NCBI RefSeq assembly: GCF_003319185.1
Contig: NZ_QOHJ01000005.1
Location: 124,001-188,000, forward strand
Length of the DNA stretch: 64,000 nt
Reading direction: 5' to 3'
Source: Blastococcus sp. TF02A-30
Lineage (GTDB): Bacteria; Actinomycetota; Actinomycetes; Mycobacteriales; Geodermatophilaceae
Position numbers and translations under genes: made by a program. Numbering within the stretch: the first letter of the stretch is position 1; each line of letters starts with the position of its first letter. A model generated the notes under the pieces. That model did not search any database. It was given only the letters and a program-made list of their open reading frames with translations, and had not been told where the DNA came from. Below are positions 29,673 to 57,055 of this stretch, one piece after another.

Positions 29673-29706
29673 CGAAGGGCCCCTACCGCTCGGTAGGGGC
29701 CCTTCG
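29673..29706 (+). terminator. Perfect 16-bp hairpin terminator
   Basis: Arms CGAAGGGCCCCTACCG (29673-29688) and its exact reverse complement (29691-29706) with a 2-base spacer. It lies 6 bases after the small basic gene. No U-tract follows. Confidence 0.85.
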
Positions 29707-44262: not shown

Positions 44263-45225
44263 TCAGAAGAGGGCCATCATGAGGGCCCGGCGGGCGGCAC
44301 CGACCCGGGGGTCCTCGTCGCCGACGACGGCGAAGAGCTCGACCAGGTGCTGGCGCGCCCGGTCGCGGTCCTCCCCCGCGGTGCGACGGACCACGTCGAG
44401 CAGCCGCTCGAACGCCGCCTCGATGTTGCCGGTGCCCAGCAGGAAGTCGGCCGCGCGGGTCTGCGCGGCGACGTCGTCCGGGTTCGCGTCGGCCACGGCC
44501 AGCGCGTCGGGGCCGGCCTCCTCGGCCCGGCGGAACAGCTGCACCTGGCGCAGGGCGATGCCGGCGTCGGGGTGGTCGGGCTCCTCGGCCAGGATCGCCT
44601 GGTAGGCGGCCTCGGCGGCGGCCAGGTCCCCGCGCTCCAGCGCCGCCTCCGCGGCGTCCAGCCGGGGGTCCTCGGCCGGCTCGGGCTCGCCTTCGCCGGG
44701 CACCGCTCCTCCGGTGGTGGCGCGGACCAGCTCGGTGACGAACTGCCGGGCCTGGTCCTCGGGGATCGCACCGGTGAACTCCGCGACCAGCTGCCCCTGC
44801 CACACGGCCTTCACCGCGGGGATGCCCTGGACCCGCAGGCCCTGGGCGAGCGCCGGGTTCGCGTCCACGTCGACCTTGGCGAGCACCCAGGAGCCACCGC
44901 CCTCGGCGGCCAGCCGCTCGAGCACCGGCGACAGCTGCTTGCAGGGCCCGCACCACTCCGCCCACAGGTCGAGGACGACCGGGACCTGGAAGGACCGGTC
45001 GAGCACCTCGGTCTGGAAGGTGGCCTCGGTGACGTCGACGACGGCGCTCCCGGGGGCGCCGGCCGGGGCCGCGGGGCTCGGCGGCGGTGCCGCCTGCGCC
45101 CGCGCGGCGGCCTCCGAGCGGGCCTTCACGGCGGCGAGGTCGACGGCGCCGGCCATCGCGGCGGCCATCTGCGCCTGCTGGGCCTGCGCCCGCGGGTCGG
45201 GGCGTCCGGGACGGGTGGGCTGCAT
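44263..45225 (-). CDS. YbbN/CnoX-like thioredoxin with TPR tail
   Basis: 320 residues from ATG 45225. An Ala/Gln-rich N-terminus precedes a thioredoxin domain with the active-site motif [18 protein letters not shown] near residue 90, followed by [13 protein letters not shown]. The C-terminal half is helical repeats ([18 protein letters not shown] and similar), matching the CnoX/YbbN holdase-chaperone layout; unlike some CnoX proteins both cysteines are kept. A homologue (Rv1324-type) lies near glgB in mycobacteria. It converges on the zinc peptidase gene. Confidence 0.87.
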
Positions 45226-45271
45226 GCCCCCGATCATCCCACCGCGGGTCCGGGCGTGTCGGGGGCGGCCC

Positions 45272-45631
45272 TCAGGCCTCCGCCCAGACCCCGAGCTCGT
45301 TGCCGCCCGGGTCGGTGAAGTGGAACCGGCGCCCGCCCGGGAACTCGTACGGCCCGGCGGTGACCCGCCCGCCGGCCGCCTCGACCGCGGCCACCGTGGC
45401 GTCGAGGTCGTCGGAGAACAGCAGCACGAGCGGGCCGCCGGGCTTCGGCGGCTCGGCGTCCAGCCGCAGGCCGCCGACCTCGCCGTCCCCGCTCCGGATG
45501 CCGGCGTAGCCCGGCCCGTAGTCGGTGAACTCCCACCCGAACGCCTCGGCGTAGAAGCGCTCGGCCTCGGCCAGGTCGGGGACGGTCAGCTCGACGTAGT
45601 CGATCGCGTGGTGCCGGTGGGTATCAGCCAT
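45272..45631 (-). CDS. VOC (glyoxalase/bleomycin-resistance fold) protein
   Basis: 119 residues with two beta-alpha-beta-beta-beta halves: [24 protein letters not shown] and [18 protein letters not shown]. The second half ends in the usual metal-ligand Glu position; the first has no obvious His ligand. Substrate unknown. It lies 25 bases after the mutase gene on the same strand. Confidence 0.82.
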
Positions 45632-45656: not shown

Positions 45657-47336
45657 TCAGAAACGGGCGGGCTCGGTGTAGGTGCCCCACTCGGCGCGCA
45701 GCGCGTCGCAGATCTCGCCGAGGCTCGCCTCGGCGCGGACGGCGTCGAGCATCGCGGGAACCATGTTGGCCTCGGTCCGGCCGACCTCGACCATCCGCGC
45801 CACGGCGGCGCGGGCGGCGTCGTCGTCCCGCTGCTGCCGGCGCTGGGCGAGCTCGGCCTTCTGGTCGATCTCGACCTGGTGGCTGACGCGCAGGATCTCC
45901 AGGGTGTCGGCGGCGTCGCCGGAGCCGGTGAGCGTGTTGACGCCGACGACCTTCTTGTCCCCCTTCTCCAGAGCGCGCTGGTAGACGAAGGCGGCCTCGG
46001 CGATCTCGCCGGTGAACCAGCCCTCCTCGATGCCGCGCAGGATGCCGCTGGTCATCGTGCCGTCGGTGCCCATGTCGCGGATGCGGGCGAAGATCGCCTC
46101 GGCCTGCCGCTCGAGCTCGTCGGTGAGCGCCTCGACGTACCAGGAGCCGCCGAGCGGGTCGGCGACGTTGGCCACCCCGGTCTCCTCGGCGATGACCTGC
46201 TGGGTGCGCAGCGCGATCTGCGCGGCCTTGGCGCTGGGCAGCGCGAGCACCTCGTCGAGGGCGTTGGTGTGCAGGCTCTGGGTGCCGCCGAGCACCGCGG
46301 CGAGGGCCTCCACCGCCGTCCGGACGATGTTGTTGTCCGGCTGCTGGGCGGTCAGCGAGACACCGGCGGTCTGGGTGTGGAAGCGCAGCTGCTGCGCCTT
46401 CTCGGTCGTCGCGCCGTAGACGTCGCGCAGCCAGCGGGCCCAGATGCGGCGCGCGGCGCGGAACTTGGCGATCTCCTCGAAGAAGTCGATGTGCGCGTCG
46501 AAGAAGAACGACAGACCGGGCGCGAACTGCTCGATGTCCAGGCCGCGAGACAGGCCGAGCTCCACGTAGGCGAAGCCGTCGGCGAGGGTGAAGGCGAGCT
46601 CCTGCGCGGCGGTCGAACCGGCCTCGCGGATGTGGTAGCCGGAGACGCTGATCGGCTTGTACGCCGGGATGTTCTCGGCGCAGTACTCCATGAGGTCGCC
46701 GATCAGGCGCAGGTGCGGCTCGGGGGCGAACAGCCACTCCTTCTGCGCGATGTACTCCTTGAAGATGTCGGTCTGCAGCGTGCCGTTGAGCTTCCCGACG
46801 TCGGCGCCCTGGCGCTCGGCGGCCACCAGGTACATGCAGAAGACCGGGACGGCGGGCCCGCTGATCGTCATCGACGTCGTCGTCGCCTCGAGGTCGATGC
46901 CGTCGAACAGCACGTCCATGTCGGCGGCGGTGTCGACGGCGACGCCGCAGTGGCCGACCTCGCCGAGCGCCCGCGGGTCGTCGGAGTCGCGGCCCATGAG
47001 GGTGGGCATGTCGAAGGCGACCGACAGCCCGCCGCCGCCCTCGGCCAGGATCATCTTGTAGCGCTCGTTGGTCTGCCGGGCGTTGCCGAAGCCGGCGAAC
47101 TGCCGGATGGTCCACGCCCGTCCGCGGTAGCCGGTGGCGTGCAGGCCACGGGTGAACGGGAACTCGCCGGGATAGCCGATCCGGTCGAACCCGGGGACCG
47201 CCGACTCGTCAGCCGGTCCGTAGACCGGCGCCACCTCGACGCCCGACAGCGTCGTGAAGTCCGCGTCGCGGACCTTCCCGCCCGCGAGCGCCGCGTCGTA
47301 CCGCTGCTGCCACCGCTGCCCGGCGTCCTGTCCCAT
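45657..47336 (-). CDS. Acyl-CoA mutase large subunit, isobutyryl-CoA mutase-like
   Basis: 559 residues; the substrate-binding barrel of a B12-dependent acyl-CoA mutase, without the C-terminal cobalamin domain, so a separate small subunit must exist outside the window. TIRQFAGFGNARQTN puts Phe at position 80 and EYIAQKEWLF puts Gln at 198. In isobutyryl-CoA mutase these two residues replace the Tyr89 and Arg207 of methylmalonyl-CoA mutase, so isobutyryl/n-butyryl-CoA is the better predicted substrate. ATG 47336 is 6 bases after a TACTAT -10. The MarR gene is immediately upstream; meaB is 5 kb away. Confidence 0.88.
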   Translation of the reverse strand: MGQDAGQRWQQRYDAALAGGKVRDADFTTLSGVEVAPVYGPADESAVPGFDRIGYPGEFPFTRGLHATGYRGRAWTIRQFAGFGNARQTNERYKMILAEGGGGLSVAFDMPTLMGRDSDDPRALGEVGHCGVAVDTAADMDVLFDGIDLEATTTSMTISGPAVPVFCMYLVAAERQGADVGKLNGTLQTDIFKEYIAQKEWLFAPEPHLRLIGDLMEYCAENIPAYKPISVSGYHIREAGSTAAQELAFTLADGFAYVELGLSRGLDIEQFAPGLSFFFDAHIDFFEEIAKFRAARRIWARWLRDVYGATTEKAQQLRFHTQTAGVSLTAQQPDNNIVRTAVEALAAVLGGTQSLHTNALDEVLALPSAKAAQIALRTQQVIAEETGVANVADPLGGSWYVEALTDELERQAEAIFARIRDMGTDGTMTSGILRGIEEGWFTGEIAEAAFVYQRALEKGDKKVVGVNTLTGSGDAADTLEILRVSHQVEIDQKAELAQRRQQRDDDAARAAVARMVEVGRTEANMVPAMLDAVRAEASLGEICDALRAEWGTYTEPARF

Positions 47337-47339
47337 GAC

Positions 47340-47366
47340 GGGATAGTAGGACGTCCAACTATCCCC
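47340..47366 (-). promoter_or_regulatory. Palindromic operator overlapping the mutase -10
   Basis: Inverted repeat centred between 47351 and 47352: GGGATAGT-A-GGAC on one side and GTCC-A-ACTATCCCC on the other, with one mismatched pair. Minus-strand TACTAT (47343-47348) inside it lies 6 bases from the mutase ATG, so a bound repressor would occlude the promoter. The MarR-type protein encoded next door is the obvious candidate. Confidence 0.6.
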
Positions 47367-47895
47367 GGTCGAGCGTTCCGGCCGGATCCGCGTCGGCCAC
47401 GTCCCCCGCCCCCAGCCGCACCCGCTTGAGGACGTCGAAGAGCAGGTGCTGGTCGGCCTCGGGCAGGTCGCCCAGGCCGAACTCCAGCTCGGTGAGCGCC
47501 GCCGTCGCCGTCGTGACCACCTGCCGGCCGGCGTCGGTGATTGAGGCCAGCACGCCACGGCCATCGGCCGGGTTCGGGCGCCGGTCGACGTAGCCGGCGG
47601 CGACCAGCCGGTCGATGGCGTTGGTGACGCTGGTCGGGTGCACCATCAGCCGGCTGCCGATCACCTTCAGCGGGAGCTCACCGGTGCGGCTGAAGGTGAG
47701 CAGCACCAGCACCTCGTACCGGGCGAAGGTGAGCCGGTGCGGCTTGAGCACCTCGTCGAAGCGGGCCAGCAGGATCTGCTGGACGCGGAAGACGCTGGTC
47801 GCGGCACGCATCGCCGCGGCCGGGCCGAAGCGCTGCTCCCACGTCTCCCCCGCGCGCTCGATCGGGTCGAACGGCAGCCCCAGCGGTCGGACCAT
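47359..47895 (-). CDS. MarR-family transcriptional regulator
   Basis: 178 residues from ATG 47895. A winged helix is visible: FDEVLKPHRLTFARYEVLVLLTFS, then LPLKVIGSRLMVHPTSVTNAIDRLVAAGYVDRRPNPADGRGVLASIT, the usual MarR recognition helix and wing. The stop lies 22 bases before the mutase start, inside a palindrome. It probably controls the mutase, possibly in response to an acyl-CoA or related ligand (inference). Start support: minus-strand TAGCGT 7 bases upstream. Confidence 0.88.
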   Translation of the reverse strand: MVRPLGLPFDPIERAGETWEQRFGPAAAMRAATSVFRVQQILLARFDEVLKPHRLTFARYEVLVLLTFSRTGELPLKVIGSRLMVHPTSVTNAIDRLVAAGYVDRRPNPADGRGVLASITDAGRQVVTTATAALTELEFGLGDLPEADQHLLFDVLKRVRLGAGDVADADPAGTLDRG

Positions 47896-51912: not shown

Positions 51913-52796
51913 GCACCGCCGCACCGACCGCACCGCCGGGCAGCCGCCGCTGGTGGTTCCAGCCCGTGCCGCTGGCGCGGGTCGCGGTCTTCCGGGTGAT
52001 CGCCTACCTGTTCATCCTGGTCGACGTCTTCCTCACCACGGCCTGGGTCCGCGCGCACGCCGACGTGCCGACCGAGTGGTACCAACCGTTGCTGATCGGC
52101 CGGCTGCTGCACCTCCCGACGCCGACGCACGCAGTGGTGACCGTCGTGATGTGGGCGCTGGTCGTCACCTCGGTCGCCGCGGCCACGGGCCGGGCTCCGC
52201 GGCTGCTGGGCGCGGCCGTGTTCGTGCTCTACGCGGAGTGGATGGTCATCGCGATGAGCTACGGCAAGGTCGACCACGACCGGATCGCCTTCCTCGTCGC
52301 GCTCGCCGTGCTGCCGACCGTGGGCCGGGCCCGCTTCCGCGACCGCCGGTCGTCGGAGGCCGCCGGTTGGGCGATGGCGGCGATCTTCGTCGCCGTCATG
52401 CTCACCTACTTCCTCGCCGCCTGGGCCAAGGTGCGCTTCGGCGGGTGGGACTGGCCGACCGGGTCGACGTTGACCCGCGCGGTGCTGCGCCGCGGCACCG
52501 ACCTGGCCGACTGGACGGTCGACGTCCCGGGCCTGCTGCCGACCGCGCAGTGGGCCATCCTGGTCCTGGAGTTCGCCGCCCCGCTCATGCTGTTCGTGCG
52601 CAGCGACCGGGCGCGGATCGCCCTGGTCGTCTTCCTGCTGGGTTTCCACGTGATGACCTACGCCGGGGTGCAGATCATCTTCCTGCCGCACTGCGTCGCG
52701 GTCCTGTCGATCGCGCCCTGGGAGCGGCTGGTCGAGCGGGTCCGGCGCCGGCCGGTGGTTCAGAGCTGGGCGACGAGCTCGTCGGCAGCCACGTAG
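51909..52796 (+). CDS. HTTM-domain (gamma-carboxylase-like) multi-pass membrane protein
   Basis: 295 residues with 7-8 hydrophobic segments. Features include PVPLARVAVFRVIAYLFILVDVF, a conserved SYGKVDHDRIAFLVALAVLP stretch and LTYFLAAWAKVRFGGWDW, consistent with the HTTM domain of vitamin K-dependent gamma-carboxylase relatives. Bacterial roles are mostly unknown. Its last 37 bases overlap the tail of the convergent meaB gene. Confidence 0.8.
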   Translation: MSTAAPTAPPGSRRWWFQPVPLARVAVFRVIAYLFILVDVFLTTAWVRAHADVPTEWYQPLLIGRLLHLPTPTHAVVTVVMWALVVTSVAAATGRAPRLLGAAVFVLYAEWMVIAMSYGKVDHDRIAFLVALAVLPTVGRARFRDRRSSEAAGWAMAAIFVAVMLTYFLAAWAKVRFGGWDWPTGSTLTRAVLRRGTDLADWTVDVPGLLPTAQWAILVLEFAAPLMLFVRSDRARIALVVFLLGFHVMTYAGVQIIFLPHCVAVLSIAPWERLVERVRRRPVVQSWATSSSAAT

Positions 52797-53785
52797 GGGT
52801 CGGTCTCGCCCGCCACCACCCGCTCGGCCAGGGTCGCGAGCGCGGCGGAGCCGTGCACGTCACCCAGCCGGGCGCGCAGCGCAGCCAGGGCGATCGCCTC
52901 GATCTCGCGGGCCGCCCGCTCGGTGCGACGGCGGTGCCCCTCGCCCGAGGACTCCAGCCACTGCCGGTGCTCCTCGACCTTCGCCAGCACCTCGTCGATC
53001 CCGTTGTCGGTGTCGCGCGCCGCCACGGTGCGGCAGATCGGCGGCCGCCAGGAGCCGGCCTCGGAGTGCCGGCCGCCGAGCGACTGCATGTACCGCAGGT
53101 CGCGGACGGTCTGGTCGGCGCCGTCGCGGTCGGCCTTGTTGACGACGAAGACGTCGGCCACCTCGAGGATCCCGGCCTTGGCCGCCTGGATGCCGTCACC
53201 CATGCCCGGGGCGACGAGCACCAGCGTGGTGTCGGCCAGCGAGGCGATCTCCAGCTCGGACTGCCCGACGCCCACGGTCTCGATGAGCACGACGTCGCAG
53301 CCGGCGGCGTCGAGCACGCGCAGCGCCTGGGGCGTGGCCCAGGACAGCCCGCCCAGGTGCCCGCGCGAGGCCATCGACCGGATGTAGACCCCGCCGTCGC
53401 CGGCGTGGTCCTGCATCCGCACCCGGTCGCCGAGCAGCGCGCCGCCGGAGAACGGCGACGACGGGTCGACCGCGAGGACGCCGACGCGCTTGCCGGCCGC
53501 CCGCAGCGCCCGCACGAGCGCCGTCGTCGTCGTCGACTTGCCGACGCCCGGGGACCCGGTGAGCCCGAGCACCTGCGCGTTGCCGGTGTGCGGCGCCAGA
53601 GCGGCCGCCACCTCGCGCAGGGCGGGGCTGGCGTCCTCCACGAGCGAGATCAGCCGGGCCACCGAGCGGGCGTCGCCCTCCCGGGCGCCGGCGACCAGCG
53701 CGGGGACGTCGACAGCGCGCCGGCCCCGGCGCCCGCGGGGGGCTTCCGGGGCCGGCGCCTGGACGGCGGTGCCGTCCGACGTCAC
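52760..53785 (-). CDS. meaB: MeaB-type GTPase, acyl-CoA mutase chaperone
   Basis: 341-residue G3E-type GTPase that protects and reloads B12-dependent acyl-CoA mutases. Walker [12 protein letters not shown], the switch region [29 protein letters not shown] and the specificity motif NKADRDGAD are intact. GTG 53785 overlaps the thiolase stop by 4 bases. It should serve the mutase encoded at 45657-47336. Its 3' end overlaps the HTTM gene. Confidence 0.95.
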
Positions 53786-54972
53786 GCCTGGGCGGGGACG
53801 TGCAGGATCAGCGCGTCGCCCTGGCCACCGCCACCGCACAGCGCGGCGGCGCCGACACCGCCACCGCGGCGGCGCAGCTCCAGCGCCACGTCGAGCACGA
53901 CGCGGGCACCGCTCATGCCGACCGGGTGGCCCAGGGCGATGGCGCCGCCGTTCGGGTTCACCTTCTCCGGGTCGATGCCGAGCTCGCGGGTGGAGACGAT
54001 GGCCACCGCGGCGAAGGCCTCGTTCAGCTCGACCAGGTCGAGGTCCTTCGGGTCGATGCCCTCGCGCTCGCAGGCCTTCTGGATGGCCCGGGACGGCTGG
54101 GACTGCAGGGTCGCGTCCGGGCCGGCGACGACGCCGTGCGCGCCGATCTCGGCGATCGGGGTGATGCCCAGCTCAGCGGCCTTCTCCGCGCTCATGACGA
54201 CGACCGCGCAGGCGCCGTCCGAGATCTGCGAGGCGGTGCCGGCGGTGATCGTGCCGTCCTTGGCGAAGGCCGGCTTCAGCTTGGCCAGGCTCTCGGCCGT
54301 GGTGTCGGGCCGGATCCCCTCGTCCTCGGTGAACTCGATCGGGTCGCCCTTGCGCTGCGGGATGAGGACCGGCGCGATGGCCTCGGCGAAGATGCCGTCC
54401 TTGTGCGCCCGCGCCGCCTTCTGGTGGCTGCCCGCGGCGAACTCGTCCTGCTCCTCGCGGGTCAGGTCGTAGCGGCTGTTGGCCTGCTCGGTCAGCACGC
54501 CCATCGCGACCTGGTCGAAGGTGTCGGAGAGCCCGTCGTGGGCCATCGCGTCGACGAGCTTGGTGTCGCCGTACTTGGTGCCGGTGCGCGAGTTCGCCAG
54601 CAGGTGCGGCGCCTGGGTCATCGACTCCATGCCCCCGGCGACGACGACGTCGTACTCGCCGGCGCGGATGAGCTGGTCGGCCAGGGCGATCGCGTTGAGG
54701 CCGGAGAGGCACACCTTGTTGATGGTCAGCGAGGGCACGGACATGGGGATGCCCGCGGCGACCGCGGCCGGGCGAGCCGGGTTCTGGCCGGCTCCGGCCT
54801 GGATGACCTGACCCATGATCACGTAGTCGACCTGGTCACCGGAGATGCCGGCCCGCTCGAGCGCGGCCTTGATGGCGACGCCGCCGAGGTCGGCCGCCGA
54901 GAAGTCCTTGAGGGAGCCGAGGAGCCGGCCCATCGGGGTGCGGGCGCCGCTGACGATGACGGAGCGGGACAT
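53782..54972 (-). CDS. Acetyl-CoA C-acetyltransferase (thiolase)
   Basis: 396 residues from ATG 54972, with GGAGG 5 bases upstream. The nucleophilic Cys is in [16 protein letters not shown]; the acid/base residues are in NEAFAAVA and [11 protein letters not shown]. The active-site loop at the end has [14 protein letters not shown], completing the second Cys. Predicted to make or cleave acetoacetyl-CoA. It is the first gene of the thiolase-meaB pair and is divergent from mce; the order matches the mycobacterial fadA4-mce neighbourhood. Confidence 0.95.
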
Positions 54973-55182
54973 GCTGCCTCCAGTGCCGGGCCGCCGTCGT
55001 TGGCGGGCCCCGTTGTCGGGTCGCACCGCGGCGGGGAACCGGCGCGGCGTCGGGCCTTCCCGGAAGGATAAATCCGCGCCCCGACGTGCGGCAGGGCCAG
55101 ATCTGTGGTCGCGGTCACGCCCGACGGGTGAAGACCGCCACTCCGGCTGTCGTCATGGACGTCTGTTCGGCACCATGCCCTC

Positions 55183-55647
55183 GTGACCACCACCGACGCC
55201 GATCACACCGCCGCCGGCCTGCCCGCGGGCCTGTTCACCACCATCGACCACGTCGGCATCGCCGTCCCGGACCTGGACGAGGCGATCGCCTTCTACGCCG
55301 AGAAGTACGGCGTGCGCTCCGTGCACGAGGAGACCAACGAGGAGCAGGGCGTCCGCGAGGCGATGCTCGCCGTCGGCGACGGCGACACCCGCATCCAGCT
55401 GCTCGCCCCGCTGACGCCGGAGTCGACGATCGCGAAGTTCATCGGCCGCTCCGGTCCGGGCCTGCAGCAGCTGGCCTTCCGCGTCGACGACGTCGAGGCG
55501 GTCAGCGCGACCCTGCGCGAGCGCGGCCTCCGGCTGCTCTACGACACCCCCAAGCGCGGGACGTCGGACAGCCGGGTCAACTTCATCCACCCGAAGGACG
55601 CCGGCGGGGTCCTCGTGGAGCTGGTCCAGCCGGCCGCTGGGCACTGA
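55183..55647 (+). CDS. mce: Methylmalonyl-CoA (ethylmalonyl-CoA) epimerase
   Basis: 154 residues, two VOC halves. Metal-ligand positions: His in TTIDHVGIAVPDL, Gln in DTRIQLLAPL and Glu in GGVLVELVQP; the usual second-half His is replaced by a Gln pair (GLQQLAFRV), a form I associate with actinobacteria. GTG 55183 has only CACCAT 6 bases upstream. It probably epimerises methylmalonyl- and ethylmalonyl-CoA for the mutase, and is followed 76 bases later by ccrA. Confidence 0.92.
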   Translation: MTTTDADHTAAGLPAGLFTTIDHVGIAVPDLDEAIAFYAEKYGVRSVHEETNEEQGVREAMLAVGDGDTRIQLLAPLTPESTIAKFIGRSGPGLQQLAFRVDDVEAVSATLRERGLRLLYDTPKRGTSDSRVNFIHPKDAGGVLVELVQPAAGH

Positions 55648-55723
55648 TCGCTACCCACCAGTAACATCCGGCCGACGCACCGCCGTACCGCCCTACCGAG
55701 CCAAAGAAGACCCGGGAGCACGC

Positions 55724-57055
55724 GTGAACGAGATCAGGGACGCCATCCTCGCCGACCAGCTGGACGCCATCGGCGGTCTGGCCGTGCCGGAGTCCTACCG
55801 CGCCGTGGTGGTGCGCAAGGACGAGCAGGACATGTTCCAGGGGATGCCCACCAAGGAGAAGGACCCCCGCAAGTCGCTGCACGTCCAGGAGGTCGCCACC
55901 CCGGAGCTCGGCCCGGGCGAGGCGATCGTCGCCGTCATGGCCTCGTCGGTGAACTACAACACCGTCTGGACGTCGATCTTCGAGCCGGTGTCCACGTTCG
56001 GCTTCCTCGAGCGCTACGGCAAGGTCTCCGAGCTGACCAAGCGGCACGACCTGCCGTACCACATCGTGGGCTCCGACCTGGCCGGCGTCGTGCTGCGCGT
56101 GGGCCCCGGCGTGAACAAGTGGAAGCCCGGTGACGAGGTCGTCGCGCACTGCCTCTCGGTGGAGCTCGAGGACCCCGCGGGCCACGACGACACGATGATG
56201 GACCCGCAGCAGCGGATCTGGGGTTTCGAGACCAACTTCGGCGGCCTCGCCGAGATGGCCCTGGTCAAGAGCAACCAGCTCATGCCCAAGCCGGCCCACC
56301 TCTCCTGGGAGGAGGCTGCCGCACCCGGCCTGGTGAACTCCACCGCCTACCGGCAGCTGGTCAGCAAGAACGGCGCGGCGATGAAGCAGGGCGACACCGT
56401 GCTCATCTGGGGCGCGTCCGGCGGCCTGGGCTCCTACGCCACCCAGATGGCGCTCAACGGCGGCGCCATCCCGGTGTGCGTGGTCAGCAGCCCGGAGAAG
56501 GCCGAGATCGTCCGCAAGATGGGCGCCGAGCTGGTCATCGACCGTTCCGCCGAGCAGTACAGGTTCTGGAAGGACGAGAACACCCAGGACCCCAAGGAGT
56601 GGCAGCGCCTCGGCAAGAAGATCCGCGAGCTGACCGGCGGTGAGGACGTCGACATCGTCTTCGAGCACCCGGGCCGCGAGACCTTCGGCGCCAGCGTCTA
56701 CGTCGCCAAGAAGGGCGGCACCGTGGTCACCTGCGCGTCGACCACCGGCTACATGCACCAGTACGACAACCGGTACCTCTGGATGAACCTCAAGAAGATC
56801 CTGAGCTCCCACTTCGCCAACTACAAGGAGGCGTGGGAGGCCAACCGGCTCATCGACAAGGGGCTCATCCACCCGACCCTGTCGAAGGTCTACCCCATGG
56901 ACGAGGTCGGCCAGGCCGCCCTCGACGTCCACCGCAACGCCCACCAGGGCAAGGTCGGCGTGCTGACCCTCTCCCCCGAGGAGGGGCTGGGCGTCAAGGA
57001 CGCCGAGAAGCGCGCGAAGCACGTCGACGCCATCAACCGCTTCCGCGGCGTCTGA
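55724..57055 (+). CDS. ccrA: Crotonyl-CoA carboxylase/reductase
   Basis: 443-residue MDR-family NADPH enzyme that reductively carboxylates crotonyl-CoA to ethylmalonyl-CoA. The cofactor motif is IWGASGGLGSYATQMAL. The four CO2-binding residues described for the Kitasatospora setae enzyme (N81, F170, E171, H365) appear with a constant offset of two: Asn79 in SVNYNTVW, Phe168-Glu169 in WGFETNFGG and His363 in LSSHFANYKEA. So it should be a true carboxylase. GTG 55724 has GGGAG 7 bases upstream. It ends in a very strong hairpin. Confidence 0.97.
   Translation: MNEIRDAILADQLDAIGGLAVPESYRAVVVRKDEQDMFQGMPTKEKDPRKSLHVQEVATPELGPGEAIVAVMASSVNYNTVWTSIFEPVSTFGFLERYGKVSELTKRHDLPYHIVGSDLAGVVLRVGPGVNKWKPGDEVVAHCLSVELEDPAGHDDTMMDPQQRIWGFETNFGGLAEMALVKSNQLMPKPAHLSWEEAAAPGLVNSTAYRQLVSKNGAAMKQGDTVLIWGASGGLGSYATQMALNGGAIPVCVVSSPEKAEIVRKMGAELVIDRSAEQYRFWKDENTQDPKEWQRLGKKIRELTGGEDVDIVFEHPGRETFGASVYVAKKGGTVVTCASTTGYMHQYDNRYLWMNLKKILSSHFANYKEAWEANRLIDKGLIHPTLSKVYPMDEVGQAALDVHRNAHQGKVGVLTLSPEEGLGVKDAEKRAKHVDAINRFRGV

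Follow-up and report, generated by a model that had tools for sequence, protein, structure and literature searches.

In the window (the whole stretch of 64,000 nucleotides that was analysed), genes for a MarR-family regulator, the large subunit of an acyl-CoA mutase, a glyoxalase/VOC-fold protein and a thioredoxin-TPR protein were found on the minus strand (Table 1). The regulator matched the MarR winged-helix domain (PF01047) with 45.5 bits at a cut-off of 24.6, and scored far under the cut-offs of named MarR equivalogs. The mutase showed the motifs IRQF and AQKE. The methylmalonyl-CoA mutases 8gju, 2xij and 6oxc read IRQY and VRNT; the methylmalonyl-CoA mutase 5req, which we take to be a Tyr-to-Phe mutant, likewise shows IRQF (with VRNT). 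In 2-hydroxyisobutyryl-CoA mutase 4r3u, the nearest solved protein, the corresponding motifs are RQI and AQKE. Phenylalanine and glutamine at those positions mark isobutyryl-CoA mutase, and methylmalonyl-CoA mutases have tyrosine and arginine. The window mutase combined these F and Q residues with the lack of a fused B12 domain, as does IcmA. On the strength of the two residues, the protein described as an acyl-CoA mutase in an earlier note on this DNA can be assigned more specifically as a likely large subunit of isobutyryl-CoA mutase (IcmA). B12-binding matches, candidates for the small partner subunit of IcmA, numbered five in the organism's own genome, and none adjoined the mutase. Near the mutase, window positions 52760-57055 encode MeaB (domain search) followed, by eye, by a thiolase, a methylmalonyl-CoA epimerase-like VOC protein and a crotonyl-CoA carboxylase/reductase, which together make up what is, mostly by eye, an ethylmalonyl/butyryl-CoA neighbourhood.

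Table 1. Coordinates of genes, putative promoter elements and the palindrome at the mutase locus.
Feature	Position	Strand	Description	Basis
MarR-family regulator	47359..47895	-	178 aa, Sco5413-like; stop codon inside palindrome	Pfam MarR domain, phmmer
-35-like element	47367..47372	-	TCGACC, 18 nt upstream of -10; putative role	
Palindrome	47340..47365	.	13-bp arms, 12/13 pairs, no spacer	inverted-repeat search
Conserved operator core	47344..47361	-	TAGTTGGACGTCCTACTA (consensus TANTNGGACGTCCNANTA, 18 bp)	conservation across relatives and named loci
-10-like element	47343..47348	-	TACTAT (TANNNT), first T 12 bp before mutase ATG (47336-47334)	
Mutase large subunit	45657..47336	-	559 aa, MM_CoA_mutase domain, without B12-binding domain	domain search; F and Q residues
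Glyoxalase/VOC-fold protein	45272..45631	-	25 nt after mutase, likely same operon	
Thioredoxin-TPR protein	44263..45237	-	next gene on same strand, possibly same operon	

The palindrome and the putative mutase promoter

The near-perfect inverted repeat reported in the earlier note was confirmed as GGGATAGTAGGAC/GTCCAACTATCCC, with 13-nt arms, 12 of 13 positions paired (92% complementary) and zero spacer. The interval originally given, 47337-47366, was a few bases too wide, the actual repeat covering 47340-47365. The note had placed it between the MarR stop and the mutase start, but it does not lie wholly beyond the regulator gene: the MarR stop codon TAG (47361-47359) sits within its upstream arm. 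On the minus strand, the palindrome and the mutase start read GGGATAGTTGGACGTCCTACTATCCC-GTC-ATG. In an alignment of the window sequence with 11 others, the conserved part of the palindrome was GATAGTNGGACGTCCTANNATC (47342-47363), the outer GG...CC being absent from the 11 other sequences.

Four zero-spacer palindromes of equal strength were found in the window, versus 0.53 per shuffled window (60 shuffles), so symmetry alone is weak evidence. Palindromes with as many A/T (12) as the one at 47340-47365 occurred 0.03 times per shuffled window at spacers of 0-8. Three further long zero-spacer palindromes, at window positions 29677, 57078 and 58967, were GC-rich. Taken alone, the palindrome is mildly unusual; its conservation is the decisive evidence. 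A pattern with 22 fixed positions detected no second copy in the organism's 4.13 Mb genome at up to three mismatches.

The -10-like hexamer TACTAT (47348-47343) lies within the palindrome, in agreement with the earlier note, and in the window and 11 aligned relatives the palindrome spanned both spacer and -10. Between this hexamer and the ATG, 6-7 nt were present in 12 of 12 aligned sequences; the -35-like position held TCGACA in all but one of the 11 other sequences (TCGACC in the window). The last T of the -10 was only modestly commoner before mutases than its mirror base (0.51 versus 0.28, n = 114). A TANNNT hexamer approximately 12 bp before the start codon corresponds to the spacing described for leaderless genes in PMC3160421, and this pattern of a leaderless actinobacterial promoter was found before the mutase ATG. 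The mutase promoter is probably leaderless, with an mRNA start at or beside the A of the ATG. A consensus scan based on rules for E. coli sigma-70 indicated no promoter at the palindrome.

Before mutases, the distance from site to start codon varied among genomes, with 7-8 nt and 22-23 nt the commonest values. Since the site elsewhere often lies at least 20 nt from the start codon, the leaderless layout would be a local one. This variation, together with tandem sites at some targets (L114, L188, L198 and L207), would also be compatible with a MarR operator at which binding activates transcription instead of repressing it, or does both depending on position. We consider activation unlikely: in the window and 11 relatives the site lies over the spacer and the -10, a position at which a bound dimer would normally keep RNA polymerase out, and most MarR proteins repress.

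Conservation and co-inheritance with the regulator

Among 60 genomes (the organism's own and 59 relatives), 54 contained a MarR orthologue, with best E-values of at most 8e-34 versus 2e-7 to 4e-10 in the other six. All 32 genomes in which the MarR gene is followed by the mutase (own genome included; L001, a duplicate of L002, excluded) carried the core TANTNGGACGTCCNANTA between or overlapping the two genes, either exactly (21), with one mismatch (10) or with two mismatches (1). Downstream of the other 22 MarR genes, the best 18-mer had 5-7 mismatches; shuffled sequence mostly gave 6-7. One of the 32 pairs (genome G012, locus L022) showed, from position 2068, an exact operator and a broken mutase frame whose first stretch comprised 117 codons; a full-length mutase orthologue was not found in that genome.

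A scan of named genomes, restricted to the best 80 of 582 hits as chosen by similarity, yielded 59 loci with both genes. In each of these 59, the site lay no more than 250 bp from the mutase start (core exact in 55, one mismatch in 4), and the loci ranged from Blastococcus and Modestobacter to Acrocarpospora, Jiangella and Streptomyces. In the remaining 21 of the best 80, the fetched stretch contained no mutase, and 20 of them had no site at one mismatch; the other, L245, had a site near a contig edge. L245 and L227 are titled Mucilaginibacter and Bacillus, respectively, with MarR matches of 64% and 84% and, in L227, a 92% mutase; both are probably mislabelled or misbinned. Tandem palindromes approximately 21-28 bp apart were observed before the mutase or icmF in L114, L188, L198, L207 and L279.

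Of the outcomes that the earlier note named as refuting its reading, lack of conservation of the palindrome at orthologous loci was looked for and not observed. Although GC-rich sequence like this window contains zero-spacer palindromes of such strength now and then, conservation in all 32 relatives and all 59 named loci that have both genes led us to reject chance symmetry, the probability of which we regard as negligible.

Presence of the site followed presence of the regulator. A first search pattern matched in 46 of the 54 genomes with the MarR orthologue and in one of the six without, the lone match being lopsided and located on a different contig from the mutase. In four MarR-less genomes with a mutase 74-82% identical to that of the window (G045, G050, G057 and G058), the palindrome was absent before the mutase (4/4). 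G039 has its MarR gene 94 kb from the mutase, yet an exact core precedes the latter. No site was found by the mutase in G036 and G038, which have both genes, with MarR proteins 44% and 52-54% identical.

In a class-wide set of 394 genomes, the core was found with at most one mismatch in 195 of 267 genomes with MarR versus 5 of 127 without, MarR presence being scored at E <= 1e-22 and thus including relatives that are possibly paralogous. A reversed-pattern control matched in 45/267 and 21/127 genomes, respectively; this frequency (66/394 overall) means that single one-mismatch sites can be due to chance. The five MarR-less genomes with a site all belonged to one family (f40), and because the reversed-pattern control matched in 12 of 40 genomes there, these sites were treated as background. 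Within the 13 families that hold both states, the site occurred in 104 of 168 genomes with MarR and 0 of 40 without (P = 3.4e-10, stratified by family, which falls short of full phylogenetic correction). One genome counted as site-bearing in both the 195/267 and the 104/168 (G295, L163) carries three sites resembling a transposon repeat; when it was left out, the within-family result was 103/168 versus 0/40, with 11.15 expected (P = 9e-10).

In a genome of the same genus that has no MarR orthologue and no close mutase (G010), the acyl-CoA dehydrogenase promoter retained the promoter half of the site, GTCCTACGAT, and its spacing, and the distal half differed. This single case corresponds to what loss of a repressor would predict. 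Seven loci (L003, L004, L005, L008, L013, L021 and L026; approximately 1501-2100) encode a MarR 81-90% identical to that of the window and no mutase orthologue. By eye, the gene after MarR is a VOC gene (L003, L008, L013 and L021) or a thioredoxin gene (L005 and L026), both of which follow the mutase in the window; since these genes now follow MarR directly, mutase and operator appear to have gone together. A half-conserved site, TAGTAGGACGTCCACGTAT, was observed in mutase-less relatives L061, L070 and L100 (at approximately 1501, 1501 and 2981); in L100 it lies approximately 200 bp before a gene that, by eye, is FAD-monooxygenase-like.

Further predicted targets

Order-level relatives showed extra copies of the palindrome before acyl-CoA dehydrogenase, icmF, mmsA, 3-hydroxyacyl-CoA dehydrogenase, ilvE-type and fabH-type genes, as named by eye from translations. 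Class-wide, 52 of 54 listed sites were examined, in 29 hand-picked genomes out of 200 with a site. Of these, 38 of 52, and 17 of the 18 exact ones, stood directly before (at -15 to 170 bp) a member of one of seven families: mutase, icmF, mmsA, acyl-CoA dehydrogenase, ilvE, bkdA and 3-hydroxyacyl-CoA dehydrogenase. Acyl-CoA dehydrogenases were accepted from 36% identity, four sites being assigned at 38-45%. As the target list was drawn on order-level relatives and then applied class-wide, the two tests are only partly independent. None of the seven families was directly downstream of the other 14 of 52 sites, some of which, by eye, preceded leuB-like, E1-alpha-like or CitE-like genes. In L193 (minus strand, approximately 1500), a one-mismatch site was observed before a gene that by eye encodes a membrane Fe-S oxidoreductase-like protein of the electron-transfer-flavoprotein kind. 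The predicted targets would form one pathway, in which valine and other branched-chain amino acids are degraded and the acyl-CoAs that arise from them are processed.

The expectation that the same palindrome precedes other acyl-CoA genes was borne out mainly in other genomes; the organism's own genome offered one good site, that of the mutase, and one weak candidate. Within the genus, an acyl-CoA dehydrogenase site with at most two mismatches was found in 17 of 23 genomes, own genome among the 23. The organism's own acyl-CoA dehydrogenase has no such site and was rejected as a target, and no second site precedes its MarR gene. The weak candidate, in an lrp-bkdA gap (G000:C11:438753, two mismatches), resembles sites before Lrp genes in L094 and L101. 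It was not counted, because at three mismatches the 500 bp ahead of bkdA contained no counterpart in any of 21 congeners and because, at two mismatches, the control gave as many matches in the own genome as the pattern. With only the mutase site good, the regulon in this organism may be one operon.

At five loci (L159, L162, L167, L190 and L191), MarR and icmF point away from each other and the palindrome lies between them, which suggests autoregulation there. These loci also bear on the notion that the palindrome acts as RNA, either as a MarR terminator or as a hairpin in the mutase mRNA. Self-complementarity and overlap with the MarR stop codon would suit such an element. However, the palindrome recurs between divergent genes and before genes that are not preceded by MarR, it has no T run, the terminator scan was negative at its position, and a leaderless start would place it upstream of the transcript. 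With no terminator-like site found, an RNA element is unsupported and, in our judgement, highly improbable.

That a different regulator, co-inherited with MarR, binds the palindrome would be easier to reconcile with the 72 of 267 MarR-containing genomes without a site at one mismatch and with the many icmF sites that had no MarR gene in the fetched stretch; co-occurrence and neighbourhood are, moreover, indirect evidence. Against a second regulator stand the adjacency of MarR and the site in 32 of 54 relatives and at the five icmF loci, the absence of the site from all 40 MarR-less genomes of the mixed families, and the MarR proteins themselves, in which VHPTSVT, the presumed recognition-helix stretch, was invariant in nine of nine aligned sequences. 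We therefore regard this explanation as improbable, even more so than activation. In more distant MarR proteins the helix stretch varied (VHQTSVT, LHPTSIT, VHPASVT); the variants MVHPTSVTN, QVHPTSVTN and QLHPTSITN were observed, and operator variants among the listed sites included GGATGTCC and GGAAGTCC.

Proposed mechanism and relation to known regulators

The interpretation of the earlier note, a MarR operator before the mutase, is supported as far as sequence goes, and the neighbouring regulator very probably docks at the palindrome. In the proposed mechanism, a dimer of the adjacent Sco5413-like MarR protein would occupy the palindrome as its operator and thereby lie over the -10 and spacer of a leaderless promoter of sigma-70 type. 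Such occlusion would keep the isobutyryl-CoA mutase gene, and probably the VOC gene that follows, from being transcribed until the dimer is displaced by a metabolite from the degradation of branched-chain amino acids, probably an acyl-CoA. We consider this reading as a whole highly likely. Points against it are the 72 MarR-containing genomes without a site, the lack of a site by the mutase in G036 and G038, the matches of the control pattern, the variable helix stretch of more distant MarR proteins and the single good site in the own genome. If it is correct, binding of the regulator to the 26-bp site should depend on GGACGTCC. It is, with lower confidence, reasonably probable that Sco5413-type MarR proteins control the catabolism of branched-chain amino acids and acyl-CoAs throughout the Actinomycetes via TACTAGGACGTCCTAGTA, with targets swapped among IcmA, IcmF, MmsA, acyl-CoA dehydrogenase and IlvE by lineage.

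The target genes steer isobutyryl-, butyryl-, methylmalonyl- and propionyl-CoA, from which actinobacteria build many polyketides and branched fatty acids; the regulator could for this reason be a handle on antibiotic precursor supply. Among the matches listed in a literature search, no paper was found on this palindrome or on a MarR protein acting on isobutyryl-CoA mutase. The mechanism looks like that of an ordinary MarR repressor with its operator, and the apparent novelty lies in the operator and regulon proposed for a regulator that is widespread but an orphan. For a regulator family of solved structure and unassigned role, this would supply a defined operator sequence, a set of predicted target genes and a few candidate ligands.

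Among solved MarR structures, Sco5413 (4b8x) was clearly the best match of the window regulator (phmmer, 1.4e-47 over residues 27-166; next best 8.4e-14), and the two have the stretch VHPTSVTN in common. We take 4b8x to be Sco5413 of Streptomyces coelicolor, which the PDB table calls a "possible MarR-transcriptional regulator"; the title of a 2013 paper by Holley et al. in Proteins reportedly describes it as a widespread actinomycete MarR regulator of "unknown function". At the Streptomyces loci compared, all from species other than S. coelicolor, a Sco5413-like MarR gene lies approximately 0.5 kb before the mutase, with the site mostly 22-23 nt before the mutase start. In an NdgR ChIP-seq table (PMC4340878), SCO5413 appears next to leucine and valine genes, which hints at a connection on the regulator's input side.

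Placement of the palindrome in the putative promoter of the gene next to the regulator agrees with the layout of MarR pairs. The classical repressors MarR, OhrR and PcaV, which have the MarR Pfam domain in common with the window regulator, bind a palindrome that overlaps promoter elements of a neighbouring catabolic gene. They differ from the window pair in operator sequence and target pathway. BkdR, which controls the branched-chain keto-acid dehydrogenase, acts in the same pathway as the window system but belongs to another protein family (Lrp/AsnC instead of MarR); Lrp-type genes would here be at most possible targets of the Sco5413-like protein, and not its counterpart as regulator.
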